DNA of 52,344 bases. It comes from an uncultured Opitutia bacterium (GTDB lineage Bacteria > Verrucomicrobiota > Verrucomicrobiia > Opitutales > UBA953). The stretch spans positions 1 through 52,344 of the forward strand of contig CAIWNE010000025.1 of NCBI GenBank assembly GCA_903913915.1. The letters run 5' to 3'. The notes beneath the pieces are model-generated. The model was not told the origin of the DNA, searched no databases, and saw only the letters and a program-made list of their open reading frames with translations. Made by a program: the position numbers and the translations under genes. Of the stretch, positions 13,052-36,700 are shown piece after piece; positions within the stretch are counted from its first letter, which is position 1, and every line of letters begins with the position of its first letter.

Positions 13052-13121
13052 GTTGGCTGAGCGGTTCGCATTAGGGAGTATCTGCGGTCGATGGGCTCGG
13101 CCTTGCCTGGACGATGCGTGG

Positions 13122-14021
13122 ATGGCTCGTCGTCGCCGGCTCATCTCCAACCAAGGCGCCTACCACGTCTACAATCGCGCCGAACTCGGCCAGCCGATCT
13201 TCGAGACCGATGCTGCCAAGCACGTCTTCCTAGAAACTATCTTAGCCACCGTCCGGCGCTTCGCCTGGCAGCTGCATGCCTTCGCGATCATGACCAATCA
13301 CTTCCATCTGGTCCTGACCACTCCCCGGGGCAACCTGAGCGAAGGCATGCACGCCCTCCAGTCGGCCTTCGCCAACAAGCACAAAGCCTTCCGAGGTTCC
13401 GTGGGCCACGTCTTCCAGTCACGTTTCGGGAGCGCGCATTATCCGGCCGGCCCATTGGCGGCCCGTAAGATCGACTACGTCCACCTCAACCCGGTCCGGG
13501 CCGGCATCGTCTCGCTCGAGGAACTTGGCGACTATCGTTGGACCAGCTTCCGCGCACTCCGCCGCCCGCATCAACGCGGCGAGCTCACCCTCGGGCTGGC
13601 GCTCACCTCTATGCACGGGCTGAGGGATGATTCCGCAGGATGGGATGCCTACGAGGAAAGGCTCCGGTTCGTCCTGGCGACCGAGGACCGTCCGGCGACC
13701 GACGAGGAACTGTTCGGACTGGTCCGCAAAGAGAAGGCTGGCCGGAGGGTCGACGGTGAAGGCCTGCCGGCGGTCGCAGGCAAAAGCCGCGAACTGCTCC
13801 GCGATGAGGAGCTCGTGCGCTGGGAAGATGCGTTCAAGGGGGCGCTTCACCTGGCTGGACGTACTGAAACGGAATTGGCATCCTTACCTCACGCTCAAGG
13901 GTGGAAGGTCAACCTCGCCAGACAGATGCGCGACCACCACGGCGCTAGCGCCAATTGGCTCGCCAAACGAATGGGGCTAAAATCAGGCGCCTACCTGCGG
14001 AAACTCCTCACCCAAGGATAA
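13122..14021 (+). CDS. REP-associated tyrosine transposase (RAYT, Y1_Tnp)
   Basis: The protein has 299 residues. The N-terminus (ARRRRLISNQGAYHVYNRAELGQPIF) and the HUH motif HFHLVL within IMTNHFHLVLTT identify an IS200/IS605-like Y1 transposase of the RAYT group. Other landmarks are SAFANKHKAFRGSVGHVFQSRFGS and YVHLNPVRAGIV with the catalytic-tyrosine-bearing helix (IDYVHLNPV). The C-terminal third (LFGLVRKEKAGRR..., then WLAKRMGLKSGAYLRKLL) resembles a helix-turn-helix DNA-binding region found in many RAYTs. RAYTs are single-copy, domesticated nickases linked to spread of REP hairpins. Start chosen at the ATG at 13122; upstream codons run into the palindrome. The gene is bracketed by two matching elements. 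Confidence 0.9.
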   Translation: MARRRRLISNQGAYHVYNRAELGQPIFETDAAKHVFLETILATVRRFAWQLHAFAIMTNHFHLVLTTPRGNLSEGMHALQSAFANKHKAFRGSVGHVFQSRFGSAHYPAGPLAARKIDYVHLNPVRAGIVSLEELGDYRWTSFRALRRPHQRGELTLGLALTSMHGLRDDSAGWDAYEERLRFVLATEDRPATDEELFGLVRKEKAGRRVDGEGLPAVAGKSRELLRDEELVRWEDAFKGALHLAGRTETELASLPHAQGWKVNLARQMRDHHGASANWLAKRMGLKSGAYLRKLLTQG

Positions 14022-14505: not shown

Positions 14506-16728
14506 TTATTTCTTGCGACGCGTCCTCTTCGCTCCTCCGGCGTAGATATAGGCTCGATCATTAGCGGGCGGGAAGACCATGGGCCACCAGAAGGCTTCAC
14601 CCCTCCACTTGTCGGCGACCTTACCATTCTGCTGCATCAGCAAAAGGACGGGCACCGAGGCCGCGACGCGGCGCGCAGGCAGCATGTCGTTGTCCGGATT
14701 ATCAGGGGTGTCCGTCGGGGTCTGATGATAAGGACGGTTACGGTTTCGACGAAGCATGATGGCAACCCCTCCGGCAGGGGCGCCTTCCGCGGCAGGAGCA
14801 GTCAGGACCGAAAGAAGGCTGAGAACATCCTCATCTCTCCAGGTGTCTTCGTATCCGGGCGTGAATTCTCCGAAGGATTCGGAGACTTCCTTGATGATAT
14901 CCGCGGCCTTGTCGGCAGAGACGATTACGTGCTTCTGGCCTTCGGTCGCAGTTGCGCCGATTTCTGCCAGTAGTTTCTCGATTCGACGGTTGATGGACCT
15001 GAGGTCCGTCGGAGATACGGTCTGGAAGCCGAGGGGGGTGATCTTCGATTCGGCATCTACGAAATTCACGCGAGATGCACGGACCTTCGAGAAGTTACAG
15101 AATTTGATGCCGCCTCCTGCCTGCTTCTCGAGGATATAGAGGCATTCCTTGAATTTCTTTTCGGCGATACGCTTGCGGAGCAAGGTATCAGTCCTGTGCA
15201 TCTGCACCATCGCTCCATAGATGCGGGTGGAGGTATAAAAGCGGGTGACGGCGCAATCGGCGGGCGAACGGAATCCGAACATTCGGCAATGCTGCAAGAC
15301 GGTATCCTGCTGGAAGGTCCTGGGGTTACGTCCATAATAGAATCCGATCAGGTTAGGCACGGTTACTCCGCGATCCATATACTGCCCGCCGACGAACATC
15401 GTCAGTGGCGCATCCAGCTTCAGCTCGCCAGACTCGGGGTCCAGCAAGGCGCGCACGTCTTCATCCGAGTTCACCAATACCGGGTTTAGCCACTTGTTCG
15501 CCAAAGCCGTCTCGGCCAACGAGAGCACTTCCTTAAGGCTTGGCAGGTGACCTTTGCTTAACTTGACCGATTCAGACAGATCAGCGTATGCATCGGAAAG
15601 CAGCCCTTTGACGAGCTCCTGATTCCCTTCCTCCTTGGCATTGATCATGTCCGAGACGAGCTGGTTGACCAGGTCGTCTTGCCAGCGATGCGATTCCTTG
15701 CTGGCCTCGGTGTGAAGCAAGAACGCGAAGTGATCGGCCTCAGAGCCTGCCTTCTCCATCTGAAGGCGGCGGATGCAGCCGGCGGCCACGAATGTCGCGA
15801 CTGCCCTACGCACCCCCTTTACCCTGTCCGATGTCAGGCAGTCGCTCTCCAGGCGGAATCCGTTCCGGTTTGGCATGGTCTTGAGGATCGGAAGCTCTTC
15901 GTCCTTTACCGGAACGAACAGCTTCGAAGACGGATGGGACTCATCCTCGACCTCCGGGCCGAAGTAGTAATCGCCGCCGACATATTCCGGATTTACAGGT
16001 ACGAGCTCGACGAACTTGGGGCGCAACCGGAAGGTCTCCGGCCGGTCTTCGATTGCGGGCCCTTCGTTCTGAAGGAATAGCGAATAGGGAGTGGCGGTGA
16101 CCTGCAGGAAGCGGGACTCGGAGATGCTACGGCGGAGCTTGTTCACCAGCTCGGCAACCTTGGCCATCTCGATCCATTCCTTGTCGTCATCCCTCTTCTT
16201 GACATAGCTGACGGAAGCGTTGTCCGCTTCGTCATCGATGATTAACGTCTTCTTGCTGAGGAACGGCGATCCGGCCTTCGTGAGTCGGTCGATTACATGC
16301 TTGATGTTACGATGCTCCTTCTTCGCCACGAGGACCAGCTTCTGGGTGGCGATATACGGAGGGATCTGCGCCGGAAGGAGCATCACGTCATTGACAAAAA
16401 TCGTCCTCTTGAAGGCGCCAAAGACCTTGGTCATGCGCTTCGTCGTCTGGTCGGCCAGTGCCTGAGAATTCTTCGTCAGGACCACGATGACGTCATATCC
16501 GTTGTCGAAACATAGCCCCATCAGACCGATGAATGACTTCGTCTTACCGGACTGAATCTTGCCGAGCAGCAACCCAGGGTTCTCATCAGTCGGTCGGGCT
16601 GACTCAAGCTCGGCATAGGTTCGCTCGATACAGCCGAGGTCTTCAGGACCATAGTAAGGACCTGTCTTGGTCCTATTCTGCTGCTGTTTAAGGTGTGAGT
16701 AAACGGGGCCGTTGGTCGAGGTAGCCAT
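14506..16728 (-). CDS. Z1-domain ATPase, last gene of DISARM-like operon
   Basis: The protein has 740 residues. An SF2-like ATPase core is visible: a P-loop variant GKIQSGKT at residues 56-63, a Walker B DDEAD at 165-169, the strand LQVTATPYSLF at about 208-218, and a helicase-like motif region MFVGGQYMDRGVTVPNLIGFYYGRN..QHCRMFGFR at 444-487. These are the landmarks of the Z1 domain (PF10593). Z1 proteins are known from restriction-type operons that also carry GHKL ATPases and nucleases, where they are thought to remodel or translocate on DNA. The ATG at 16728 has AGGATAGG about 10 bases upstream and lies 59 bp after the STAS-like gene. This is the only gap longer than 3 bp in the operon. Confidence 0.85.
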   Translation of the reverse strand: MATSTNGPVYSHLKQQQNRTKTGPYYGPEDLGCIERTYAELESARPTDENPGLLLGKIQSGKTKSFIGLMGLCFDNGYDVIVVLTKNSQALADQTTKRMTKVFGAFKRTIFVNDVMLLPAQIPPYIATQKLVLVAKKEHRNIKHVIDRLTKAGSPFLSKKTLIIDDEADNASVSYVKKRDDDKEWIEMAKVAELVNKLRRSISESRFLQVTATPYSLFLQNEGPAIEDRPETFRLRPKFVELVPVNPEYVGGDYYFGPEVEDESHPSSKLFVPVKDEELPILKTMPNRNGFRLESDCLTSDRVKGVRRAVATFVAAGCIRRLQMEKAGSEADHFAFLLHTEASKESHRWQDDLVNQLVSDMINAKEEGNQELVKGLLSDAYADLSESVKLSKGHLPSLKEVLSLAETALANKWLNPVLVNSDEDVRALLDPESGELKLDAPLTMFVGGQYMDRGVTVPNLIGFYYGRNPRTFQQDTVLQHCRMFGFRSPADCAVTRFYTSTRIYGAMVQMHRTDTLLRKRIAEKKFKECLYILEKQAGGGIKFCNFSKVRASRVNFVDAESKITPLGFQTVSPTDLRSINRRIEKLLAEIGATATEGQKHVIVSADKAADIIKEVSESFGEFTPGYEDTWRDEDVLSLLSVLTAPAAEGAPAGGVAIMLRRNRNRPYHQTPTDTPDNPDNDMLPARRVAASVPVLLLMQQNGKVADKWRGEAFWWPMVFPPANDRAYIYAGGAKRTRRKK

Positions 16729-16787
16729 GCCCAATACCTATCCTGCCCCGCTTATTGAGCAATCCTACTATCCAACTTTATGCCAAA

Positions 16788-17093
16788 TCAGTTACCCCTC
16801 CGCTCGGACATGCTCAAGGCGCTCAGGACGAACCCCTTGATTAGGGGCGAGCAGGCCTTGAATTTCAGGCGGGTGCCGAACGACCCCTTATGCTTGGCGA
16901 ACAGCTGCGCGAAGCACGCATTCGAGAAGGAATCGGTCATGTTCTCCACTCCGGCCAGATCCAGGATCACGTCATCTCCACGGTCCATCACCGGCTCCAC
17001 ATGCGTACGACGAAAGACCACCGCGGCGTTCCCGTCTGCCAGGAAAGGCGTGGCGAAATGATCGCGCAGTTTGATGGTGGTGGTGACGTTCAC
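16788..17093 (-). CDS. STAS-like domain protein (DUF4325)
   Basis: The protein has 101 residues and starts at a GTG that overlaps the upstream stop as GTGA. The sequence NVTTTIKLRDHFATPFLADGNAAVVFRRTHVEPVMDRGDDVILDLAGVENMTDSFSNACFAQLF follows the DUF4325/STAS-like pattern: a strand with VILDLAGV, the loop with MTDSFSN in place of the phosphorylatable serine region of classical STAS, then a helix. STAS-like proteins of this kind often pair with GHKL ATPases, as SpoIIAA pairs with SpoIIAB. The preceding gene encodes exactly such an ATPase, so a partner-switch or phosphorylation pair is the simplest reading. Ser residues in DSFSN are the candidate targets. Confidence 0.8.
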   Translation of the reverse strand: MNVTTTIKLRDHFATPFLADGNAAVVFRRTHVEPVMDRGDDVILDLAGVENMTDSFSNACFAQLFAKHKGSFGTRLKFKACSPLIKGFVLSALSMSERRGN

Positions 17094-18085
17094 GAGAGGA
17101 AGCCGCCTGTACGTTCTGCAGAAAAGTCCCGTTTTTGCAAACCCAGCTTAATACGGACTTCGTTAAGTATCTGATAGAAAGAAGTTTGCCCCACGGCGCT
17201 GCGGACGAATCCCAAGCCTACAGCCACGCCTCCATAGGACGCTCCGAGCTTCTTGGGAGCCATGGGTACCACGTCGGCTTTGCCATGATCATCGAATACG
17301 AACGAGTCTCCGGAGTAGATCGCGAAGAGGCCGGCCGAGTCTTCGGTGAGGGCGCGGCACATCGGTAGGCCGACCCCATAATTAGGTGATTCCTTACCTT
17401 CATAATCACGCCGGTGGGTCGTGCTGCTCGACTCGACAGTGAGGGCTTCCCCCAGCATGTAGACGTCGCTAGCCCCCGGCTTATACTTAGGAGATTCACT
17501 CAATCTATAACTCCCGGAAACACCCACGCCATCGTCGGCGATTGCGACATGGAACATGCCATCTGAGGGGAAATACTGCGCATGCAGGAATCCGATACCA
17601 CGGGAGTGCTGCATGCAGTTCTTGATCAACTCACCCAGGAGATACTCCAAGAGGTACATCGTATCCGTCGCCTGCTGGCCGGACATGTCCTTCACGAGAC
17701 AGGAGGATATCTCACGGCCCAGCGATGCCTCGTCGGTATTATGGACGATTTGTCTGATCGTGATGAAGTTATCCTTGGAGTCGTGACGCTGGTTTGCGGA
17801 CTTTATCTCGATGTTCAGGTGCCTGAAGAAGTCCATCCGTTCGGCATATGAGCCGCCGTTGGTATTCGAGTAATACTTAATCTCGACCTTCTTCCCTTCC
17901 TTTTCGCGCCAGCGATGGACCGTAGCGAGTATGATGCAAAGCGGGAGTGGCTCGTAGAAAGACATCTTGCGGATGTCCAAGACGATGCCTGTGGTACCGG
18001 CCGCATTGCCCGCGGCGAGGCTCCTGATCAGGCCGCCGGCATGCTTGGCCTCATACTTTGCGTTTAACTCGATGACTACGCTCAT
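17090..18085 (-). CDS. STAS-like/GHKL ATPase fusion
   Basis: The protein has 331 residues. Residues 1-95 look like a second STAS-like fold (GIVLDIRKMSFYEPLPLC, then ATVHRWREKEGKKVEIKYY). Residues 140-255 are a GHKL ATPase of the anti-sigma/histidine-kinase type: N-box ELIKNCMQHS (Glu152, Asn156), G1 box ADDGVGV at 183-189 and G2 box YGVGLP at 236-241. There is no HisKA dimerisation helix, so it is not an ordinary sensor kinase. It overlaps the HNH stop by one base (TGATG) and shares GTGA with the STAS-like gene. Its likely job is an ATP-dependent switch for the operon's effector; MutL/MORC-like DNA clamping is the alternative, but motif style favours the anti-sigma type. Confidence 0.8.
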   Translation of the reverse strand: MSVVIELNAKYEAKHAGGLIRSLAAGNAAGTTGIVLDIRKMSFYEPLPLCIILATVHRWREKEGKKVEIKYYSNTNGGSYAERMDFFRHLNIEIKSANQRHDSKDNFITIRQIVHNTDEASLGREISSCLVKDMSGQQATDTMYLLEYLLGELIKNCMQHSRGIGFLHAQYFPSDGMFHVAIADDGVGVSGSYRLSESPKYKPGASDVYMLGEALTVESSSTTHRRDYEGKESPNYGVGLPMCRALTEDSAGLFAIYSGDSFVFDDHGKADVVPMAPKKLGASYGGVAVGLGFVRSAVGQTSFYQILNEVRIKLGLQKRDFSAERTGGFLS

Positions 18086-18915
18086 CAGGACTTACGGTAT
18101 ACCTTGTCGCGGTGCCAGGCAAGGTAGGGGGAGTGCTTAGGCGTGAACTGGGTAATGGCACGCTCTTGGCAACCTTGGCCGAGGAGGGATACGGCGATGG
18201 CGGAGGGCAGCGCGGGGCTGAGGAGGATCTGGCCAGCGTCCGTGAAGCTGATCCAGCCCCCGTCGAAGAGTCGGTCGATATGCACGGCCAGAAGGATGCC
18301 GTTAAATGGGTCGAGTCGCTCGGCCGGGGATGAATCAGCCCAAGGCTTGGCATGGCTGGCTACGAGGAATGCAGGGTGGTTGATGCCAGTGATGGGGCAG
18401 CGGCCAGACCAGAGCTTCTCCAGGGCGTCGCGATACTTGTCCTGGCCGCGACGTTGTTTGACCAAAGCCTCGCGGACCGTGGGGTCTGCTGCAGCTGCCG
18501 CCTGCAAGGCCGGGGGCAATGAGGCGATGATACGTGACGCCTCGTCCCCCCCCTGTTCGACTGTGCCACCCAGTGAAGGTTGTCCGACAGGCAGAGGGAT
18601 ATTCTTAGCCGTGATATCATGGCATACCGCCGTAGCGGCCTTAACAAATTCGGAGAGATCATAGGGCTTAACCCTGAAGATGCCTACGGACGTGTAATAC
18701 GACTTGGCCAAGGCGTCAGTGACTGCTGCGCTAGAAAAGCGTACCGCGTACGAATCCGGAGAGGCACCTGCACCAATGTCGTCGCCAATCAGCATTACGC
18801 TACGATGAGTAGCACTGAGAAAGGTGAGCACGCCGTCCGCCCCAAGGTCGCCTGGCACCATCCAGCCGCAGTTCTCGGCCGCCTTCTCGGCGTTAATGCG
18901 CTTATTGTCGTTCAT
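18085..18915 (-). CDS. HNH endonuclease (PF13391 type)
   Basis: The protein has 276 residues. The C-terminal half carries an HNH site: Cys173 in GRCPITG, His188 in ASHAKPW, Asn205 in DPFNGILL and His212 in AVHIDRLFD. The spacing fits the HNH_2 family of restriction-like nucleases. The first roughly 150 residues form a separate domain (VMLIGDDIGAGASPDSYAVRFSSAAVTDAL...), perhaps for target recognition; I do not recognise it. The start ATG overlaps the methylase stop as ATGA. In a DISARM-like setting it would be the DNA-cutting subunit, a role for which drmC (a phospholipase-D-type nuclease) is the usual candidate and is absent here. Confidence 0.82.
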   Translation of the reverse strand: MNDNKRINAEKAAENCGWMVPGDLGADGVLTFLSATHRSVMLIGDDIGAGASPDSYAVRFSSAAVTDALAKSYYTSVGIFRVKPYDLSEFVKAATAVCHDITAKNIPLPVGQPSLGGTVEQGGDEASRIIASLPPALQAAAAADPTVREALVKQRRGQDKYRDALEKLWSGRCPITGINHPAFLVASHAKPWADSSPAERLDPFNGILLAVHIDRLFDGGWISFTDAGQILLSPALPSAIAVSLLGQGCQERAITQFTPKHSPYLAWHRDKVYRKS

Positions 18916-21900
18916 GCCTGTCCGCGCCGAAGGGGTTCAACAATCCTATCCCAGGCTTCGAGCACGAGACGCTGCGTGCGGTATTCGCCATGTCGCTTGA
19001 TTTCTACTTCTCTGAGACCTCTAAATGTCTCGGAGGGATAAGCAGGGCCCATCACTGTCTGAGGATATAGGATGTACTCCATATCAGTTCGAGATAGCCC
19101 CCAAAGATGCCCCACATAAGCGTCCAGCTCTGCCTTAACCAGCGCGCGTCGTTCATCATTGAACGGATAAGGGGTGCCGCGTGCAGCTCCACTTCTGGAT
19201 TCCGCTGAAGGGAAGAGTCCGACTATTTCATCGTAAAATGGACGAAGTGAGAAAGTGGTGTAAACCAGTTCCAGCACTTTCGGCAGGATGAATGCTTTCT
19301 GCGCGGCTCCAAATGCCGACGGGGGTAGCGCCGGAATTTGATTCATATATGAATACGACAAATGCGTGCCTCCGACCTTGGTCCTGACGACATAGTCACA
19401 AGGAATAGAAGAAAGCTGGGCGATAAGGCAGGCCATCAATGAAGCATCTCGCGTAGATGCCATATTAAGCACTGTGTGGCCTGATCCCGAAAATGGGTAT
19501 ACAGAACAAATCAGGGTTCGGATATTTGCATTCATATCCGTGATGTCTCGCCAGCCGAACATCCAGTTAGGGCAGAAGAATCGTAACAGGACTGACTGCG
19601 CCTCAGCATACGAACTAGTAAGCAGCAGGTCCCTAATAAAGGCCTCCGAAGGCGCCGGCATGCTCCCAAAGAGGTCCTTGAATGGAGCACTGCCTAAATC
19701 TTTGCCGACATTCTTCGCCCACTTGAAATGCGCGCCTGAAATCCTTGGCTTATCTTGCAGGCTACCAATCGCGTGGCTCAAGTACGCTGAATATAAAAGC
19801 TCCGTCTCCTCGGAGTACGGACCTTTAAATGCCGAATCCACATTGGACAACCTGGCAACGAGATCTGAGCTGCTCACCCAATAGCGGGGACGGACATCGT
19901 ATGCCGGATCTTGTTTCGTCTCATACGTTACAGAGGAAGCAGAATCGTCATCGTTCACCGCCTCGCCATTTAAAGACTCCTGAAACTGGCTGAACCTGTG
20001 ATCGTAGATCTGAAACATCTTTGACTCATACAAGGGCGTTAGACCGACGCCGGGGGCATTTGAAAAACAGTCCGCGTCTCCCGCCATATCGTAAACCCTC
20101 TTATAGGATATACCCCAATCATCTGAACCGGTCTCGCCAACCTCCTTCTTGAGAATTGGGATTCGTCTGTAGATTCCAGAAACAAGCTGCAGGTCTTTCT
20201 CGGAGCGCAGAATCGGGGACGTCTTTGTGTTAGGATTAAGCAGCGCGAAATCCGAATCCGTCAGTCGCATCATCCGGCCCACAACCTTTAAATCATCGAC
20301 CGAATGAAGCATGAATGCGAAATCTGCCGCCGGGCTATCGCCAATAGTAACGAGCGAGAACTTCATCAATGGCTGGACGTCCCTAAATAGCCGTTTCTTG
20401 TTCTCGAAGCTAAGGAATGAGGCCAGCTTTCGGCTTGAAATAAGTTTCCCAAAAAAGTCGGCAGTATTCATGTCCGTGGCAATTCCTGTCGGAGCAACCA
20501 ATCCAGCGCGCCCATCTCCTGACAAGAGGCTTAGAAAATTCTCCGCAAAGAGCGCATAGAGATTTACGTCTCCACGCCCTGTTAGCGGAAAGCGATTGGA
20601 GTCATGCGCGAAAGCGGAAATTGCTTCCGTAACTCGCTTCGCCGAAAGAAAGTCTTCGTATACAGATCTTTCGGGGGTGCCTAAGGAGCTATTTTTAAGC
20701 CTGTCGATACAGCGTTGTCGCTCAGTTTTATTGATGGCTGCCGCAACTTCGGGAGATCGTGTCGCAAAAAACTCACGCTCCTTCAGGGTAATCTTTTCCC
20801 ATGGCGGGTTTCCAAGAATAACGGCGAACCCTCCACGCTCAAAGACATGCGGGAAAGCAAGTGGCCAAATGAGAGACTTAGCCTTAGCACAGGCATCATC
20901 GACCGCGGGCAGCACATCCTGGAGCCTTTCTCCATTCATAGCCGCCAAGATGTCAGCAGACGTCGGCACCCGGACTCCTTGCGTCTTAGGTAATAGATAC
21001 GCCCCGAGATAGAGTTTGGCCGCCGTCACACGCCAATCGGCCTGAGCCTCCTTCATGAAGACCTCCAACTGACCGACTTTCTTTGCGACCCCGTCCAGCG
21101 TGTCGTCACTTAGGACGTCGATCTTAGCGAAAGACTTACCCATGTCGACCTTGGTACCGCCGAAGAGGTCCATAGTCCCCTGCTTGACCTTGAGTTCAGA
21201 ATCTCTGGCAGACTTGTTGCGAGCCTTCAGAGCCTTAGCCGTAGCCTTATCATCACCGGTGATTACCTCGTAGGCTTCATCAGGGATACCCTTGGTAGCC
21301 ATATCGAGGTCGATGATGCTAAGAATCGAATCCCCCACGACGAGGTGGTGGTCCAGGAAGCTGAGGGGTTTGTCCGCCACATAACCTTCCAGCCATAAAG
21401 CGACCTTAGCCAACTGTATCGCCATGGGATTTCGATCCACACCGTGGATACAGTGCGCAATGACGTCGCGCAGGGCGCGACGGTAGTCAGTGGCCTCGCC
21501 GCCTTCGGCACGAATGGCGGCCAATTTTTCGGCCAGTCGACGGGCGGCACCGAGCAAGAAGTGGCCGGAGCCACAAGCAGGGTCGATGACGGTGATGGAG
21601 AGAATTGCCTTCTCTTTCTCTTCCTTGGTGGACTTGCCCGTAAGCCTGTCGGCCACGACCGGATCAAGCGTCGTATCCAGGAGCTGCTGTACCAAGCTGT
21701 CAGGGGTGTAATAGCTTCCGGAAGTCTTACGGTTGTTGCCCTTCCCCTCTTCCTCGTCGGCCTTGATGAAGCCGAATCCTTTGCCGCTTTCATCGATATA
21801 GGGTGTCAGCTCTAGAAGCGACTCGTATACCGAGCCCAGTTCCTCGGTGCCCATGGACTTGTAGTTCACCGGAACAAGGGCGTCATTTTCCCGGAACCAT

Positions 21901-23180
21901 GCGATGGCCCGAATCGCGTTCAGGAGCCGTCGGTTAGAGATGTTGCTCTTCACGAGCTCGGCACACTGCTCTTCTGCAAAGAGGCTGCCCAGAGGAGGCA
22001 GGCCCAAGGCCTCCTGGCCGGTCGCCAGACCTTTGAAGGTCACCTTGAGGCTATCCCAGATGTCGTCGTAGCGATCCTGACAATGACGGATACTCCGTTC
22101 GCGAAGGCGGGCTAGCGAGTAACCTTCGGCGTAGAGTTCCACCTGCTCGGTCTTCGCCGTCTTGGGGTGTAACAGCTTACGGTCTTCGACCGCGAAGAGG
22201 AAGAGCATCCGGTATACCAGACGAAGTACCTGCTGGTGGTATTCTTCCAGCTTGAGCGTGCCACTTCGGAGGGCCTCACGAAGTCGGGCACCGTCACGGT
22301 GTTCGAGGAAACCCGAACCCAGTTCGACCATGGCTTTCTCCACTCCAATACGGAGAGAATCACGGACACGGGAGCCTTCTTCCTGGGCAGCCTGATGCCA
22401 GACTTCCAAGGGGCATCCGGCAGGACCAGTCGCGTCAGGTTTAAAGCGAGTGGCATGCACATGCATCCAAAGCAGCGCAAAATCGGCCATGAGCTGTTCG
22501 CCCAGGATGCGTTCGAGGTTTGCCTCGAAATACGACTGCCTGGTCAGAGAGTCAGAATCGCGGAGGATGCGCAGATTAAGTCCATTGGAGCACACAGCCC
22601 AGAGACACGCATCCTCGGCATTAAGGTATTCCTGTGTCAGCTGGCTGGCGGTCCGCTTGCGGTGTCCGTCGCCTAGCGCCAGATCTGCCGTATCAAGGGT
22701 CTGCTGTGCGCCAATGATAACCACCGGAACGGCCTTCCCGTGGGCGGTGCGACCGATCGGGTAAGGCATGTCGGCCACGACCTTGGGCTCCGTCGTCTTG
22801 ATGTCAGAGAATCCGAAGCAATCCTTCAGAAGCTGGCCCACGAATCGGACCGTAGCCTGGGTCTTATCCCCTTCGCCCTGGCGAGCAGAGTCGAAGTCCT
22901 TCCAGAGCGCGGTAGCGATGCGGAAGCTGCGACCGATCTCCTCCTTGAGGTCGATGCCAGCCGGCAACTCGTAGTCAGCCGAAGACTGCCTATCCGCCTC
23001 GGCCTTGGCGACCTTACGGACATGCTCGACCGTGAAGAGACCTCCTTCGACCTGGATGGCTGGGTAATCGTCGAGAGTGACGTTGCGACGGACCGAACTC
23101 GTCCGAGAGCCGACAGGCCCGTTAGACTTATTTGCGCTACCAGGCTTCCGGCCGCGCTTCTTAGGTGCTTCAGACGACAT
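18912..23180 (-). CDS. Large N6-adenine DNA methyltransferase (DrmMI/PglX-like)
   Basis: The protein has 1422 residues. The N-terminal region (to about 480) resembles the helical and recognition parts of type IIG/BREX PglX enzymes. SAM motif I is at about 531-543 (VIDPACGSGHFLL) and the catalytic motif IV is NPPW at 791-794. A YYTPDSLVQQLLD segment precedes motif I. These are the landmarks of gamma-class N6-adenine methylases such as Eco57I, PglX and DISARM DrmMI. No PD-(D/E)XK nuclease motif was seen at the N-terminus, so it is probably a methylase only and marks self DNA. It begins 2 bp after the SNF2 helicase stop and overlaps the HNH gene by 4 bp. Confidence 0.88.
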   Translation of the reverse strand: MSSEAPKKRGRKPGSANKSNGPVGSRTSSVRRNVTLDDYPAIQVEGGLFTVEHVRKVAKAEADRQSSADYELPAGIDLKEEIGRSFRIATALWKDFDSARQGEGDKTQATVRFVGQLLKDCFGFSDIKTTEPKVVADMPYPIGRTAHGKAVPVVIIGAQQTLDTADLALGDGHRKRTASQLTQEYLNAEDACLWAVCSNGLNLRILRDSDSLTRQSYFEANLERILGEQLMADFALLWMHVHATRFKPDATGPAGCPLEVWHQAAQEEGSRVRDSLRIGVEKAMVELGSGFLEHRDGARLREALRSGTLKLEEYHQQVLRLVYRMLFLFAVEDRKLLHPKTAKTEQVELYAEGYSLARLRERSIRHCQDRYDDIWDSLKVTFKGLATGQEALGLPPLGSLFAEEQCAELVKSNISNRRLLNAIRAIAWFRENDALVPVNYKSMGTEELGSVYESLLELTPYIDESGKGFGFIKADEEEGKGNNRKTSGSYYTPDSLVQQLLDTTLDPVVADRLTGKSTKEEKEKAILSITVIDPACGSGHFLLGAARRLAEKLAAIRAEGGEATDYRRALRDVIAHCIHGVDRNPMAIQLAKVALWLEGYVADKPLSFLDHHLVVGDSILSIIDLDMATKGIPDEAYEVITGDDKATAKALKARNKSARDSELKVKQGTMDLFGGTKVDMGKSFAKIDVLSDDTLDGVAKKVGQLEVFMKEAQADWRVTAAKLYLGAYLLPKTQGVRVPTSADILAAMNGERLQDVLPAVDDACAKAKSLIWPLAFPHVFERGGFAVILGNPPWEKITLKEREFFATRSPEVAAAINKTERQRCIDRLKNSSLGTPERSVYEDFLSAKRVTEAISAFAHDSNRFPLTGRGDVNLYALFAENFLSLLSGDGRAGLVAPTGIATDMNTADFFGKLISSRKLASFLSFENKKRLFRDVQPLMKFSLVTIGDSPAADFAFMLHSVDDLKVVGRMMRLTDSDFALLNPNTKTSPILRSEKDLQLVSGIYRRIPILKKEVGETGSDDWGISYKRVYDMAGDADCFSNAPGVGLTPLYESKMFQIYDHRFSQFQESLNGEAVNDDDSASSVTYETKQDPAYDVRPRYWVSSSDLVARLSNVDSAFKGPYSEETELLYSAYLSHAIGSLQDKPRISGAHFKWAKNVGKDLGSAPFKDLFGSMPAPSEAFIRDLLLTSSYAEAQSVLLRFFCPNWMFGWRDITDMNANIRTLICSVYPFSGSGHTVLNMASTRDASLMACLIAQLSSIPCDYVVRTKVGGTHLSYSYMNQIPALPPSAFGAAQKAFILPKVLELVYTTFSLRPFYDEIVGLFPSAESRSGAARGTPYPFNDERRALVKAELDAYVGHLWGLSRTDMEYILYPQTVMGPAYPSETFRGLREVEIKRHGEYRTQRLVLEAWDRIVEPLRRGQA

Positions 23181-23182
23181 GG

Positions 23183-25978
23183 TCAGAGGGAGGAAATGGA
23201 GGGGAGGACGACATAGACGCCGATGATATCGGCCGGAACGCAGGCCGTGACGGTTACCTGGCCGGAGGCCTTGGATGCGGCGCGCACGCGCTGGTGGTCG
23301 GCCTCGAGGGCCGCGGCGCGGGATTGGGCATACTGGGCCAGGACGGACTCCTTGGATTTCACGAGTTCAAGGGCTCCTTGAATTTCGCGGGTCTTAGTAT
23401 CGTTACGCAGATTGCCGACAGGAGGCTTATCCAGGAGCTTGAGCGGCGAGTCATTCTTCTCGGGATCATCCACCAGCGGCTGGTCGATGCGCCCGCCGAC
23501 GTAGGAGTAAGCAACAGACTCCTCGGCCATCAAAGTCGTGATCTCCCGATTACGGTGGGTAAGCCGGATCTGATGCCGGAGGCGCATGACCAGGATGACG
23601 GTCGGCTCCTGGACGTCGGCGCTTTCACAAGCACTGCAACGGCTAATCCTCGACTTGGAGGCCTCTTCTCCTTCCAGCCACTCTTCTAGGAGATACTCGG
23701 CGATCAGAGAGACCAAGGGGTGGCTACGGCCGACCGAAATCACGCGAGAAGGAGGACGCCCCCCGAAAGTGATACGAATCGTGCCTTCGAGTCCGGCCTC
23801 ATCGGACAGGCGCTCCTTCAAGGCTTCAGGCAGGTGGGTCAGGTTGACCTCGAGAACCTCATCGGTCGATTCAGAGGGAACGACGGTCGTCCCGGTACCC
23901 AGACGGCGGCAAGCTGCCTCAAGGAATCGGCGTACCGCGCCGGCGTCGCCGAGAAGCTTCTTTTGGCGATCGTATTCGGCGATCACCTCATCCGGCTTGA
24001 TGGCTCGTTGAGCGAAGATCGTATGCAGCTTCTTCGCGTGCTCTCGGGCATCCACCCATTTAGCCTCTAGGGCCTTCGCTTCAGGAGTATCACCCAGGTC
24101 GAGGGTCGTCTGCTTGGGGTTGGCCTTGATGAGCTCGGTCACGAGGACCTTGAGCATCGTATCGCCTTCGGTGGGGATGGCGACCGTCACGCCCAGCTCC
24201 TTCTTGATGCTGTCGGCCTTGCGCTGGATGACCTTCATCACGAGCGCGTCGACAGGATTGTCTTCGCCATGTAGCATCAACGAACGGATCTTCGCCTTGG
24301 GCTGCCCAAGGCGGTCCACTCGGCCGATGCGCTGCTCGTGGCGAGTCGGATTCCAAGCCAGGTCATAATGGATGACCGACGAAAAGACCGTCTGAAGGTT
24401 TACCCCTTCAGACAAACAGTCGGTTGCCACTAGGAGGCGACTAGGGGAATCACCCATCTCTTCGATGAGCTTAAGCCGCTCCTCGGGGCTCAGCGCTCCT
24501 GAAGCGGATTCCACACGGACGCCGGGAAGCCCGGCGCTGAGGTGTTTCTTCAGATATTCGGTCGTCGCGACATAGCGGCAGAAGACGACCGGATTGAACC
24601 CGGCTTCGGTCATCTTTTTCACTTCCGAGAGCAGAAGCTTCAGCTTGGGGTCATGGATGGGGCCGGAAAGCGCCTGTAGCTTGGGGATGAAAGGCGACTC
24701 CGGGCCGGACTCAGGGGCAAGGGCTGGTTGCTGTTCATTGGTAGGCTGGTCGGGTGCAGACTCCCCCTGCAGGTGTTCGCGAGCAGCTTTCTCGGATTCC
24801 AGCGCACGCGTGCGCAGCGCGCTGATGGCGGCATCAGGCGAGGAGGCGAGGCATCGCAGGAGGGCAAGCATGCCGAACCATGACTTACGTTCGCCCGATG
24901 TGTATTCCTCGCGGAGTTTCGCGATGACCTCTGCGTAGAGAGATTCCCACTTCGCACCTTGGAGATACGAAGCACCGGCATCCTCCCTGGCGGGGAAGCC
25001 GAGATTGGTGTTCTTCCAGTCCTCCTCGATGTCCTTACGTCGACGTTGGATGAAGAAATCTCGGAGCTTCTCACGGAGGCGCTTCACCTTCGGGTCGTCA
25101 GCGCTAAGATCGGCCAGACCGTTGAAGTCTGCATCGAGCAGGCCCAAGAGTTTATAATAGGCCTCGTTGTCGCCGGAGTAAGGCGTGGCGGAAAGGAGGA
25201 TCAGGTGGCGCTCCTTCTGGTCAGCCAAGTCTTGGAGGAGTTTTTGGCGAAGTTGGCGATCGGAGCCGGAGACACACGAGTGGACTTCGTCCACGATGAT
25301 ACACTCCGGAGCCTTGCTGAGAAAGTAGTCCCTGTTACGGTCACTCTTGATGTAATCGAGGCTAATAATGACGAACGGGTAATACTTGAAGAGGTCTTCG
25401 CCGGGAGGGAGGTTGCGCTCGATCTGGGCGGCGCGGGCAGCGGTGATGCACTCAGCCCGGATGTTGAACTTCTTGAGGAGCTCCCCGTGCCACTGTTCGA
25501 TGAGGTGGGGCGGGCAGAGTACGGCGAGTCGGCTGATCTCGCCGCGGTCGATGAGCTCCCTCGCGATCATGCAGGCCTCGATCGTCTTGCCCACGCCCAC
25601 GTCGTCCGCGATGAGGAGGCGAACGACATCCTGCTTCATCGCCATCAGCAATGGCACCAACTGGTAGACCTTGGGCTCGACCGCGATATTGCCGAAGGAG
25701 CGGAACGGCCCGGCACCAGAACGAAGTTTGAGCTGCAAGGCATCACGCAGGAGACGAGCGCCATCGTGCGTGCCGGGCTTGGTGGCATCCGGGGGGTTGA
25801 AATTCGCCGGACCAACCTTGCGGAACGGAACCTCAAGGGCCGGACATAGTACCACCTGGTCGGCCTCGGACCCGCCGAGGGGCCGCAGGACCAAGCGGGA
25901 CTCGGTGGACTTAGGCTGAACGACCCAATCGCGCCCACGCGCGGTCACGATCGTTCCGGGGCTGGATATCTCAGACAT
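23183..25978 (-). CDS. SNF2-family helicase, DrmD-like
   Basis: The protein has 931 residues from the ATG at 25978. This start gives an 8-bp overlap with the upstream helicase (ATGTCTGA); sequence before it is Ser/Pro/Arg-rich and lies within that gene. Motif I is at 125-135 (DDVGVGKTIEA), motif II is DEVH at 230-233, then LLSATPYSG (motif III), and late motifs in LLVATDCLSEGVNLQ and WNPTRHEQRIGRVDRLGQ. Long SNF2/RapA-type helicases with this DVGxGKT signature and a helical C-terminal half are the DrmD subunits of class 1 DISARM. It lies directly between a DUF1998 helicase and a DrmMI-like methylase, which is the strongest reason for the call. Confidence 0.85.
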   Translation of the reverse strand: MSEISSPGTIVTARGRDWVVQPKSTESRLVLRPLGGSEADQVVLCPALEVPFRKVGPANFNPPDATKPGTHDGARLLRDALQLKLRSGAGPFRSFGNIAVEPKVYQLVPLLMAMKQDVVRLLIADDVGVGKTIEACMIARELIDRGEISRLAVLCPPHLIEQWHGELLKKFNIRAECITAARAAQIERNLPPGEDLFKYYPFVIISLDYIKSDRNRDYFLSKAPECIIVDEVHSCVSGSDRQLRQKLLQDLADQKERHLILLSATPYSGDNEAYYKLLGLLDADFNGLADLSADDPKVKRLREKLRDFFIQRRRKDIEEDWKNTNLGFPAREDAGASYLQGAKWESLYAEVIAKLREEYTSGERKSWFGMLALLRCLASSPDAAISALRTRALESEKAAREHLQGESAPDQPTNEQQPALAPESGPESPFIPKLQALSGPIHDPKLKLLLSEVKKMTEAGFNPVVFCRYVATTEYLKKHLSAGLPGVRVESASGALSPEERLKLIEEMGDSPSRLLVATDCLSEGVNLQTVFSSVIHYDLAWNPTRHEQRIGRVDRLGQPKAKIRSLMLHGEDNPVDALVMKVIQRKADSIKKELGVTVAIPTEGDTMLKVLVTELIKANPKQTTLDLGDTPEAKALEAKWVDAREHAKKLHTIFAQRAIKPDEVIAEYDRQKKLLGDAGAVRRFLEAACRRLGTGTTVVPSESTDEVLEVNLTHLPEALKERLSDEAGLEGTIRITFGGRPPSRVISVGRSHPLVSLIAEYLLEEWLEGEEASKSRISRCSACESADVQEPTVILVMRLRHQIRLTHRNREITTLMAEESVAYSYVGGRIDQPLVDDPEKNDSPLKLLDKPPVGNLRNDTKTREIQGALELVKSKESVLAQYAQSRAAALEADHQRVRAASKASGQVTVTACVPADIIGVYVVLPSISSL

Positions 25979-28900
25979 TTCGACGAGTGATTTGGAAGTA
26001 TTCTGCGTTGGCGGCAAAGATCTCAGGCCAAGTGGCCGGAGACTCGGGGAACATGATGGCCTTGATTCGTTTGCTCTCCAGGTAGGCCACGACCTCAGCC
26101 GGGGCGGACCCCATGAAGACGGCGAGTCGTTGCTCAGGATAAAGCGCATCTACCTTACGGTCGAACCCGGTAAGTTCCACATCACGCTTTTCAGGATGAC
26201 GAAGGCCGAGCTCCGTGAGTTTCGAAATCCAGGCTCCGACAAGTCCGGTCGCCGGGATGACATCCGCGGGCTTGGCTAGCTTCACCGAGCCGGACGCGCA
26301 GGCCAACAGGAGCTCAACCACCTTCTTGTCCTGTCGGTTGATATGTTCGTGCTCAGTCTGGTTGTAGTAACTGAGCAAGCAGCGATAGCAGCCACGCTCA
26401 CAGCGTGGCTCGAGGTTCTTAAGGTCCGAGAAAGCAGCGGCGCCTTGAGGCAACTCGTAATGCATCAGCTCGAGGGCGCGCTTAGCAACCTTAGCCAACT
26501 CATCGGGCTCATTGGCAAGGCGAGTCAGCACACCCGCGCCGCCTTCGGCCGATTCATAGAGCAGGATGGAGGTCCGACGGTCCGGGTCGGGCAAAGGCTC
26601 GGCGGCTAGCTCGGACGCCTCGATCTGGAAATACATCTCGATACCTCTTTTAAGCGCCGACCCGAAGGTGGAGAGCTCATGCGGGTCGAGCTTCTCGTGA
26701 GGAGTGACGAGCAGGATGTTTCGGAAGTCCTCCACGTAGGGGATGATCTTCTGCGGCTTGATCTTGCTCGGATCATCCTTGTCGTCGGCGTCGGCGGACG
26801 GGTCCTCTTCCTTGCTCCACTGTCCCGTGACCGGGTTGATGTAGAATCCGAAGACGTTGCGGTCCTTGCGCCGGCGCCAACCCTTGTTGATGCGATAGAT
26901 GCGGGCCGTCGGGCCGTACTTAAGGTCAAGCAACGGCGATCCTGCGGCGGTGACATGGCTAGCCTCCGTCTTCTCAAGCTTGTCGTTCGCGCCGGGCATG
27001 AACTCGAAGGTCGTCTGAAGGTCATAACCCTGTCGCTGGCGTTCCTCGTCGTTGACCGTGATGCGCTCTTTGACCTGGGTGCTGACCTGTTCGATGCGGT
27101 ATAGCTCGTCGAGACGGGCAGCTTCGGCCAGAGGCGTACCGCAACCGACGCAGACGTCCTGAGACGGGCCTTGGCCGGAAACCATGCCGAAATGACCATG
27201 GCCGCACTTCGTGCAGATCGAGGCGACCGTAGTCGGAAGCCTGTCTCCATTCGCCGTCTTACCAAGGATCGCCTTGGTGACCTGGAACGTGCGTCCGAGG
27301 TGATAGATGATGCTGCGCGGTCCGAATTCGGAAATCGCCAGGAAGCGGGGACGGGAAATCGACACCATCGTGTCGTCCTGTTCACGCTGCTCTCCCGTAC
27401 CGATGGGAATCCACGCCATCAAAGGCAGACGCGGGAAGTTGTAACCCGGAAGGAAACCCTGGCTGGCAAGATAACGGTAGACGTAGAAATCGTTCTGGCT
27501 GCTGACTTTGTCGCCGATCAGCGAATTATACTGGCGGGAAGCATCATTGAATCGGCGACGGGCGATGTCGCGGTCGCGCTCGGCGACGGTGGAATCCTGA
27601 GTCACCTTGCTCGCGCTATCCATCTGCTCCTTTGCGTTGGTGACCAGTTCGCGCCAGCGATCCAAGGCCTTGTTAAAGGCCGTGGGGGCCTGCGTGACGA
27701 CGGACTTCGGCCAATCGGCGGAGAACCAAGGAGCGCGGACCGGCTCAAGGTCGGCCTTGATCTGGGCGACCACGGACTCCACCTCAGCCAAAGCCTTGTC
27801 GGCCAGGCCGTCTTTAGAGAAGTCGGAGACGACGGCCGGAAGAAGCGGGATGCCTGCTTGAGCCGGATCCACCAGGCCCTTCACGGAGGAGCCTAGGTCG
27901 CGCTCGGTAGCGGCGAGCCAGACAGCCTGAACGTGGCTCTGCACCAGCTCGCGATTCGATAGGTCGAGTGCAGGCTCGCGGACCTCGCCAGACACCATCT
28001 CGTTCGGATTGGAGCCGAACCACTGATCGTGCGGGCTCATCGCAGCACAGTACGTGATGACAAGCGCGGGCTGCCCTGAGCGACCGGCACGACCGCTACG
28101 CTGGGCGTAGTTGGCAGGAGTCGGCGGGACGTTGCGCAGAAGGACGAAGTTCAACGCGGAAATATCGACACCGAGCTCCATCGTAGGGGAGCACACCATG
28201 ACCGGCAGGCGCTGGATATCCTGATCGTGAACTTCCTTCCATCGCTTGATGTCGCTTTCGCCGAATCGGAACCGGTGTTCGAGAAGCTCGCGTCGGTCGT
28301 GCTCGACCTGTGCGGTATGTTCCTGTGCTTCAAAGTCGAAGAGCAGGGACGACTTATTGGCGAAGAGGTCGCTGACAGAACGGTACAACTCAAGGAAGTA
28401 AGGGTTCGCGCGTGTCGCCTCTGCCGGCGTCGCAGGAATCCAGAGAAGCTCCTGGCTCATCAGCTTCCAGCCCTTCTTGCCATTATCGAGATCGTCGGCG
28501 GCGGTAATACCCCAATCCAAGCCTTGGTGGAGGACCCACTCTACGAGCTTAGTAAGCGCGAGCTTACCGTCCGTCTTCTTCACGAAAGCGGCCTGAGTGT
28601 CGTTCCAGATATTAAGGCGAGAAAGATGGCGAATGATGCCCGACTTAGGGCCGGCAGAGACCAAGGACACTTTTCGGTTCCTGACCGCATTCATCACCAA
28701 GTAGGAGCCGTTGCTCAGTCGTTCGTCGTCATTGAAACACCAAGGCGCACGAAGCACTCGGCGGGCGGCTCCCTTTACGGTCTCCTGGCGGTTGGAGGCG
28801 AACTGGTCGGCGGCGATGCAAAGCTGGCGGCGCATCTGGATGACGACCTCCTGGATGAAGGCTCGACGCCCGTCGGGCTTAAGGTTCGCAAACAGTTCCG

Positions 28901-31211
28901 GCGCATCCTTCTTCGACTCGATATCAGCGGCAAAGGGTTCCAGCTGCTTAAGACGGACGTCGAGCAGCTCGAGCTGCTCAAGGTTCGGATGATTGAAACG
29001 CCAGCCTCGACGCAGGTCGAAAAGCAGACGATAGCCCACGACGAACTGCAGGGTCGCCGAGGCCTCGTTGAGCGCCCCGCCCTTCAGGTTTGGGTTCACC
29101 AAGAACTCGTTCAGCGCGGCCTCGTTCCCTGGAGCAAACCCGAGGGCCTGCACCACGTGGTCCGCCAGTTCCGCGATCGTCGCTCCGGAGGGGAAAGCCC
29201 TGAGAGCGGACATCAACGCGCCACGAAGGGTGAGCAGGAAGATAAAGTCGTTGAAGTGTCCCGCCTGAAGCGCGGCATCCTGGCGATTGTCCGAGAAAGC
29301 GAGCAACTTCCGGAAGTCGGGATCGCCTTTCTTGGGAGCTTCGCCCTCGAACAGTCGACGCAGCGAAGAGTAGACGATAGCGGTGGTTGCCGAAGAACGG
29401 CCTTCGCCGGACAAGCCAGCCAGACGATTAAAGTCACGACCCTTGAGGTCGTGGGCGACCTTACAGCTCACGCAAAAGCTGAACTTACCCGGAAGAAACC
29501 AGGCTTTCGTAGCACCATCAGCCGGACCGCCGGTCGAGACGCCATTGGATCCGACATGTACGCGCTGAGGAATGCGCCCCTTGAAGGAGTTCTTCACCTT
29601 GATCTCGTCCTCTTCGGGCTCCAGCCAATCGTCGGGAAGGTTTTCTTCAGCGCCGTCGAACGGATCTGGGAACTTGGCGCCCGTCTCCAACGGCGCCAGG
29701 TAGCCCGTGCCAAGGATGGCTTCGCCGTCGGCCTTAGGCACGTCGTCGATGTCGCGAGGATCGAATCCCGTGGGCGTCTTTACGACGGGCAGATATTCCT
29801 GTCCGCAGTTACGGCAGAAGTGACAGGTATAGAAGCGCGTGCCTGCCGGACGATCGGGGGCATAGGCCTGTCCGTCCAAGCTGAAGAGTCGTCGCGAGGC
29901 TGGCTCTAATGTCGTACGAAGGGTGCCGGCGCCTTTGATGAACTGGTGGAGTCGAAACGCGAAGAATCGGCGGCGTGAGTCCGCCGGATCCTTCACCTCA
30001 TATGCCGCGAGGAGAAATTGCTTCAGATAAGCGGCCGCCTGCTCTTTGGTCACCCCGCTGCCTGCATCCTTGGCGAATTGCTCTGACGCGACCTTAAGGG
30101 AAATAGGCTTCGCGCGACGCGCCGGCTTACCAGGGAGGACTTCGATTCCCATGTTCAGCTCTACCCAGACGGCGACCGGATGCTTACGGTAAGTCGCGAA
30201 GTCCTGCGCGGGCAAGGGCTCGGTGGTGCATTTGGCGAGGAGCGGATTGACGTCTTCTAGCGAAAGAGACGGATCAGTGACGCGTTCCAGCGTCTCGCCG
30301 ATGATGGAGCCCGGGGCGATTTCGGTGCCGAATAGTTTGGTCGCCACGCGTGAGACGACGCGTCGGCGCTCCTCTTCGTCGCCGGAAGACGACATCGTCG
30401 CTGAGGTGCCGATGCACAGCAACCCGTCGGCCTTGAGACGGGAGCGGACGCGACGTACGAGAAGTGCAACATCCGCGCCCTGACGGCCGCGATAAGTGTG
30501 CAACTCATCGAGCACCAGATACTCCAGGCCATGGCAGTTCGCGAGGACACGCTTGTCGTCTTCGCCGAATCGAGTCAGCAAGTACTCCAGCATCTGGAAG
30601 TTCGTCAGCAGGATATCCGGAGGATTGGCGGCGATGTGCGCGCGCTGAGCCTTGTCCTCCTGGCCAGTATATCGCTCAACCGAAACCGAATCACCGCCGA
30701 GGTTATCCGTGAACTTCTTCACCTCCTCGAGCTGGCTATTCGCCAAGGCGTTCATCGGATATACGATGATCGCCCGCGTACGCTTTGTCTTGTCGCCCGA
30801 AGCGCGCGCACGGAGCACGGCATCTACGATAGGGATAAAGTAGGTCAGCGACTTGCCCGAGCCCGTGCCCGTAGTCACCACGTAGCTCTTCTTGGCCTGA
30901 GCCTGCTGAATCGCGAAGACCTGGTGCTTGAACAGACGAAACGGGATGGCCGGCTCGCCCTGCTTCTTGATCGAGAAGAACTGAGCCGTCTGCGGGTGCA
31001 GCAGGCCGCCGGGAGCGGAGAGCTCTCTGACATCCTTGTCCCGGAGGTAGTTCGCGTTGAGCTGGAGGATCGGCTCCGGCCAGAAGCGGCCTTCATCGCT
31101 CTCCTTCTTGACGAATTCCTTGATGTCGGGAGCGGCGATATTAGCGAAGCTGGTCGAGAAACGGCTGTAATCAGAGATCAGCCCATCGCGAAATTCAAAG
31201 ATGTTGCTCAT
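25971..31211 (-). CDS. DEAD/DEAH helicase fused to DUF1998 (DrmA-DrmB-like), first gene of operon
   Basis: The protein has 1746 residues. The helicase motifs are TTGTGSGKS at 113-121, DELH at 235-238, GTSATMS, and the late motif YAQRSGRAGRSG at about 1035. Between the RecA halves is a long insertion with a Cys pair (FCRNCGQ). The C-terminal part has a second Cys cluster (CTKCGHG...VCVGCG) and a DUF1998 end with ESAEGGAGVL and CERGCYRCLLSYYNQ from residue 1604. In DISARM, DrmA is a helicase of about 1100-1200 residues and DrmB a DUF1998 protein of about 600; the length and domain order match a fusion of the two. Druantia DruE is the other large helicase-DUF1998 protein, but the DrmD and methylase neighbours favour DISARM. 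Confidence 0.85.
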   Translation of the reverse strand: MSNIFEFRDGLISDYSRFSTSFANIAAPDIKEFVKKESDEGRFWPEPILQLNANYLRDKDVRELSAPGGLLHPQTAQFFSIKKQGEPAIPFRLFKHQVFAIQQAQAKKSYVVTTGTGSGKSLTYFIPIVDAVLRARASGDKTKRTRAIIVYPMNALANSQLEEVKKFTDNLGGDSVSVERYTGQEDKAQRAHIAANPPDILLTNFQMLEYLLTRFGEDDKRVLANCHGLEYLVLDELHTYRGRQGADVALLVRRVRSRLKADGLLCIGTSATMSSSGDEEERRRVVSRVATKLFGTEIAPGSIIGETLERVTDPSLSLEDVNPLLAKCTTEPLPAQDFATYRKHPVAVWVELNMGIEVLPGKPARRAKPISLKVASEQFAKDAGSGVTKEQAAAYLKQFLLAAYEVKDPADSRRRFFAFRLHQFIKGAGTLRTTLEPASRRLFSLDGQAYAPDRPAGTRFYTCHFCRNCGQEYLPVVKTPTGFDPRDIDDVPKADGEAILGTGYLAPLETGAKFPDPFDGAEENLPDDWLEPEEDEIKVKNSFKGRIPQRVHVGSNGVSTGGPADGATKAWFLPGKFSFCVSCKVAHDLKGRDFNRLAGLSGEGRSSATTAIVYSSLRRLFEGEAPKKGDPDFRKLLAFSDNRQDAALQAGHFNDFIFLLTLRGALMSALRAFPSGATIAELADHVVQALGFAPGNEAALNEFLVNPNLKGGALNEASATLQFVVGYRLLFDLRRGWRFNHPNLEQLELLDVRLKQLEPFAADIESKKDAPELFANLKPDGRRAFIQEVVIQMRRQLCIAADQFASNRQETVKGAARRVLRAPWCFNDDERLSNGSYLVMNAVRNRKVSLVSAGPKSGIIRHLSRLNIWNDTQAAFVKKTDGKLALTKLVEWVLHQGLDWGITAADDLDNGKKGWKLMSQELLWIPATPAEATRANPYFLELYRSVSDLFANKSSLLFDFEAQEHTAQVEHDRRELLEHRFRFGESDIKRWKEVHDQDIQRLPVMVCSPTMELGVDISALNFVLLRNVPPTPANYAQRSGRAGRSGQPALVITYCAAMSPHDQWFGSNPNEMVSGEVREPALDLSNRELVQSHVQAVWLAATERDLGSSVKGLVDPAQAGIPLLPAVVSDFSKDGLADKALAEVESVVAQIKADLEPVRAPWFSADWPKSVVTQAPTAFNKALDRWRELVTNAKEQMDSASKVTQDSTVAERDRDIARRRFNDASRQYNSLIGDKVSSQNDFYVYRYLASQGFLPGYNFPRLPLMAWIPIGTGEQREQDDTMVSISRPRFLAISEFGPRSIIYHLGRTFQVTKAILGKTANGDRLPTTVASICTKCGHGHFGMVSGQGPSQDVCVGCGTPLAEAARLDELYRIEQVSTQVKERITVNDEERQRQGYDLQTTFEFMPGANDKLEKTEASHVTAAGSPLLDLKYGPTARIYRINKGWRRRKDRNVFGFYINPVTGQWSKEEDPSADADDKDDPSKIKPQKIIPYVEDFRNILLVTPHEKLDPHELSTFGSALKRGIEMYFQIEASELAAEPLPDPDRRTSILLYESAEGGAGVLTRLANEPDELAKVAKRALELMHYELPQGAAAFSDLKNLEPRCERGCYRCLLSYYNQTEHEHINRQDKKVVELLLACASGSVKLAKPADVIPATGLVGAWISKLTELGLRHPEKRDVELTGFDRKVDALYPEQRLAVFMGSAPAEVVAYLESKRIKAIMFPESPATWPEIFAANAEYFQITRRNV

Positions 31212-36103: not shown

Positions 36104-36700
36104 ACGTTCCGGACGCGAAGCGATGCCTGAGTGCCTCCGCTGATACCGAGGAAGGAGCCTGGCGACGATCTCAACAGCCTGCGCAGGAGAACCAGCGGCA
36201 TAGACGCAGTCATCGGGGATATCTTTATATCTGACTCTTTGGTCGATTTTCGTGCCCGCCAACTTGCCGCCCCACCCTTCATATGGCAGGGCCACGATCA
36301 AGCGCCGGTAGATCCATCCGAGCGCGATTTCGCTTAGAGTTCCAGCCCCGCCACCGATCACGATGATGGCATCGGAATGGGCGACGATGGAGTTTCGCAG
36401 ATGATCCATCCCGGTGGCGATGACCACATCTACGAAGGGGTTGGCCGACCCTGGATCACTTCCGGGCGCGATTCCGATGATATCCCCATCGCACCATGAA
36501 GGCGCAGCCCTCGCCCCTGCGGATGCCTCTTTCATGACGCCCCCCATCCCCCCAGTGACGAGACGCCATCGCTTCTCAATGATTTGCGCGCCGACTTCCC
36601 TGGCCGCCACAGCCTTAGAGCCAGCCGGATCGGTTGAAGCGTCGCCGATGACGGCAACCATCGGCCGCCGCTTAAGATCCGAGGGGGCTTCAGGCTCCAT
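36101..36700 (-). CDS. SLOG/LOG-like nucleotide-binding protein (TIGR00725 type)
   Basis: The protein has 199 residues from the ATG at 36700, overlapping the upstream stop by 11 bp. The Rossmann-like SLOG fold is evident: MVAVIGDAS at the start, RLVTGGMGGVMKEAS, and SDAIIVIGGGAGTLSEIALGW. GGxGTLxE is the phosphate-binding signature shared by LOG phosphoribohydrolases, DprA and TIGR00725 proteins. Members bind or cleave nucleotides or NAD-like ligands; the substrate is unknown here. The PGGxGT variant of true LOG enzymes is absent, which favours the TIGR00725 branch. The stop (TAG at 36101) falls just inside the duplicated peptide tail. The role in the glycosyltransferase unit is unclear. Confidence 0.82.
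   Translation of the reverse strand: MEPEAPSDLKRRPMVAVIGDASTDPAGSKAVAAREVGAQIIEKRWRLVTGGMGGVMKEASAGARAAPSWCDGDIIGIAPGSDPGSANPFVDVVIATGMDHLRNSIVAHSDAIIVIGGGAGTLSEIALGWIYRRLIVALPYEGWGGKLAGTKIDQRVRYKDIPDDCVYAAGSPAQAVEIVARLLPRYQRRHSGIASRPER

Follow-up and report, generated by a model that had tools for sequence, protein, structure and literature searches.

Layout of the operon

The window analysed here, a 52,344-nucleotide stretch from an uncultured Opitutia bacterium (contig CAIWNE010000025.1), contains seven minus-strand genes spanning 14506..31211, which form the tightly joined operon that the original prediction described. Reading downstream, these encode a 1746-aa YprA-family helicase, ArmC-like (25971..31211), with DEAD, Helicase_C and MZB/DUF1998 domains and a degenerate Vsr-like C-terminus; a BrxHII/RapA-like SNF2 helicase, ArmA-like (23183..25978); a 1422-aa PglX/Eco57I-like N6-adenine methylase, ArmB-like (18912..23180), whose translation shows DPACGSGHF and NPPWEK; a 276-aa HNH_2 nuclease (18085..18915), whose family often occurs 3' of the methylase gene at loci of ARMADA I type; a 331-aa STAS-GHKL kinase-like protein resembling CapK and VapK (K, 17090..18085), in which no HTH was seen; and a 101-aa DUF4325 STAS-only protein resembling VapS and CapS (S, 16788..17093), with an invariant Ser55 in its putative phospho-site motif. 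The seventh gene lies at 14506..16734. The likely ATG start of the SNF2 gene, at 25978, overlaps the YprA stop, the HNH and methylase genes overlap by 4 bp, and the HNH, K and S genes are linked by overlaps of 1 and 4 bp.

The operon looks like a bacterial anti-virus cluster of the recently described ARMADA type, with a seemingly dead built-in Vsr nuclease domain and a separate nuclease, to which a possible protein on/off switch and a DNA motor have been added. This combination was absent from the related clusters examined.

An ARMADA I-type core

According to the ARMADA preprint, Type I operons run from a YprA helicase through a BrxHII-like SNF2 helicase to a PglX-like methylase (Bell et al. 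2025, bioRxiv, PMC12458937), and the window has the same three genes in that order. A contig search seeded by aligned SNF2 sequences yielded at least 583 relatives, the best 80 of which were kept for locus counts. Among these, a YprA helicase precedes SNF2 in all 76 loci whose contigs reach 1 kb or more upstream of it, and a methylase lies downstream in 73 of the 80; six of the seven loci without one have less than 1.5 kb after SNF2, the seventh being L146. Two plasmid loci (L237, L238) are annotated in the ARMADA I order, and in a third (L236) the helicase is unannotated yet matched. In a 27-row tree that included two helicases assigned to ARMADA II by their gene order and two Druantia DruE proteins assigned by DruA or STY4851 neighbours, the window helicase groups with the ARMADA I-type rows with support of 100/100. 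The ARMADA I labels in this tree likewise rest on gene order, the preprint's reference WP_108720193.1 is not among the rows, and the tree program gave a long-branch warning for the reference rows.

The original prediction had read this core as DISARM joined to a Z1/GHKL/HNH module. Class 1 DISARM comprises drmD-drmMI-drmA-drmB-drmC, and the window resembles it in its SNF2 helicase, PglX-like methylase and YprA-type helicase parts; PADLOC models for DrmD and DrmMI do match the SNF2 protein and the methylase. However, the DrmA and DrmB regions are unsplit and form a single protein, the YprA-family, ArmC-like helicase, and no PLD protein corresponding to DrmC occurs among the seven. In PADLOC, the helicase's best matches are DruE models (309 bits), which would favour Druantia, but these matches are partial, and the top-scoring model for the SNF2 protein is named DpdE (570 bits). 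The database used, PADLOC-DB 2.0.0, is from 2023 and predates the ARMADA preprint. DruA and DruH, too, are missing from the seven proteins, and the tree sets the window apart from the two Druantia references. We therefore regard a variant of DISARM or Druantia as very improbable. The preprint assigns DISARM to another clade (PMC12458937). The original prediction is supported in part; by gene order and tree, the core is ARMADA I-type.

Two named systems were rejected as candidates: Druantia, as the PADLOC matches, the content of the seven proteins and the 27-row tree did not together show a DruE-clade helicase with DruA-D or DruH partners; and Dpd, as scores fell below the NCBIfam cut-offs (DpdE 169.5 versus 500, DpdJ 85.2 versus 800) despite the DpdE name of the best PADLOC SNF2 model.

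No helicase match at E 1e-50 was found when 78 further genomes of the family to which the window belongs were searched, and 24 of 383 other genomes in a class sample had one at E 1e-60. This pattern suggests horizontal acquisition.

We also note some variations among the related loci: (i) ARMADA I-type cores of YprA, SNF2 and methylase are carried by two IMG/VR viral contigs (L176, L178). (ii) Six ARMADA I-like loci (L064, L065, L066, L075, L078, L080) share a conserved gene of 661-692 aa 3' of the methylase; the L064 copy, the sole one scanned, has no Pfam match. (iii) Further defence-like genes lie within or behind the ARMADA I-type operons of L063-L066, L075 and L237. Genes found between methylase and HNH in such loci include reverse transcriptases, GmrSD, Schlafen/AlbA and DUF6236 genes, while a YhcG nuclease or VapBC can lie between SNF2 and methylase. 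(iv) On a Caballeronia plasmid (L240), consecutive genes encode a YprA helicase of the neighbouring branch, SNF2, an enzyme annotated as MmeI and a protein annotated as SMC. In the window itself, a Y1-transposase-like gene of the IS200 family (13053-14021) adjoins the 3' end of the operon, and the gene at 36690-42557 encodes 1955 aa in which glycosyltransferase, methyltransferase and histidine-phosphatase domains are combined.

Degenerate Vsr and separate HNH nucleases

Among 71 aligned helicases, the IDGPHH-like motif, which we take to be the catalytic motif of the Vsr domain, is kept in 23 of the 70 that are readable there and lost in 47, the window's included. The Vsr state changes a single time on the 71-row tree. 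Because the window and 46 other motif-less rows nest with intact ones, we place the window as an ARMADA I-type core of a Vsr-degenerate branch and not as a typical member. The preprint gives a C-terminal, predicted active Vsr domain as a property of ARMADA and not as a naming criterion (PMC12458937); the window helicase differs from Type I in that its Vsr-like domain looks degenerate.

HNH_2 proteins of the window's family lie 3' of the methylase gene in 37 of the 55 loci that extend 1 kb or more beyond it, and in 33 of the 45 that extend 5 kb or more. When loci were divided by Vsr state, with a score limit of 25 bits so that a cut copy in L103 was counted, HNH_2 was present in 30/33 Vsr-degenerate versus 6/17 intact loci (at least 3 kb after the methylase; Fisher p = 7.6e-5, a value that overstates the evidence because the Vsr state changed once on the tree), and in 28/30 versus 5/14 with at least 5 kb. 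On that tree, the presence of HNH switches nine times. The nearest solved relative of the HNH protein by profile is 6yex, the match being confined to the HNH part.

If true, the pattern points to a nuclease swap inside ARMADA I, from fused Vsr to separate HNH, which would allow the cutting domain to be identified directly in a defence family whose mechanism is listed as unknown (PMC12904381). Beyond the ARMADA preprint and the CapKS paper, no description of HNH in ARMADA I, or of STAS-only pairs within restriction operons, was found among the listed titles and abstract openings of the open-licence literature, where figures or supplements may list HNH; DUF4325 is named in two papers of that collection.

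The kinase-STAS pair and its known relatives

The 331-aa protein has by itself a weak HATPase_c match, below cut-off (E 0.0014), and no STAS model match; within its family, at E ≤0.1, HATPase_c is found in 9 of 12 members and STAS_2 in 7 of 12. Residues E152, N156, D184, G186, G188, G237 and G239 are invariant in all 12 aligned members. For the smaller protein, the DUF4325 family profile matches solved VapS (9z7o) at 5e-5, while the window sequence taken singly gives no such match. A Ser-Phe pair stands unchanged in all 16 aligned DUF4325 sequences, and from the motif its Ser can be read as the putative equivalent of the STAS phospho-serine. The window protein has nothing beyond its STAS domain, and the same holds for its aligned relatives; such pairs recur inside other restriction operons, directly before the cleavage subunit. 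The kinase (17090-18085) also has a match (E 2e-4) to PDLC02567, a PADLOC model of 1750 aa that bears the name DrmA; the match covers model residues 64-192 and hints that proteins with a fused kinase-like N-terminus exist elsewhere. Restriction systems are commonly regarded as permanently active and held in check by methylation; if the switch reading is true, they can include a phosphorylation switch by which the nuclease is armed on demand.

For the known pairs, it is reported that CapK, once activated by single-stranded DNA, transfers phosphate to a serine of this kind in CapS, and that the VapC nuclease of VapKSC is inhibited by the STAS protein (Chambers et al. 2026, EMBO J, PMC13373217). 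The window pair resembles CapKS in that a STAS-GHKL kinase precedes a STAS protein with a conserved Ser, as seen by family profile, and VapKSC in the profile match of its DUF4325 family to VapS. Yet Pfam shows no HTH on the window kinase and no wHTH on the 101-aa STAS protein, whereas CapS represses through its wHTH domain, and no VapC PIN nuclease gene follows the pair. Lacking the CapK HTH, the CapS wHTH and a VapC gene, the window pair therefore falls outside both CapKS and VapKSC. By analogy it may nevertheless work by the same chemistry, though from a different position: the known pairs lie upstream of an abortive system, while that of the window sits inside a restriction-type operon with overlapping genes.
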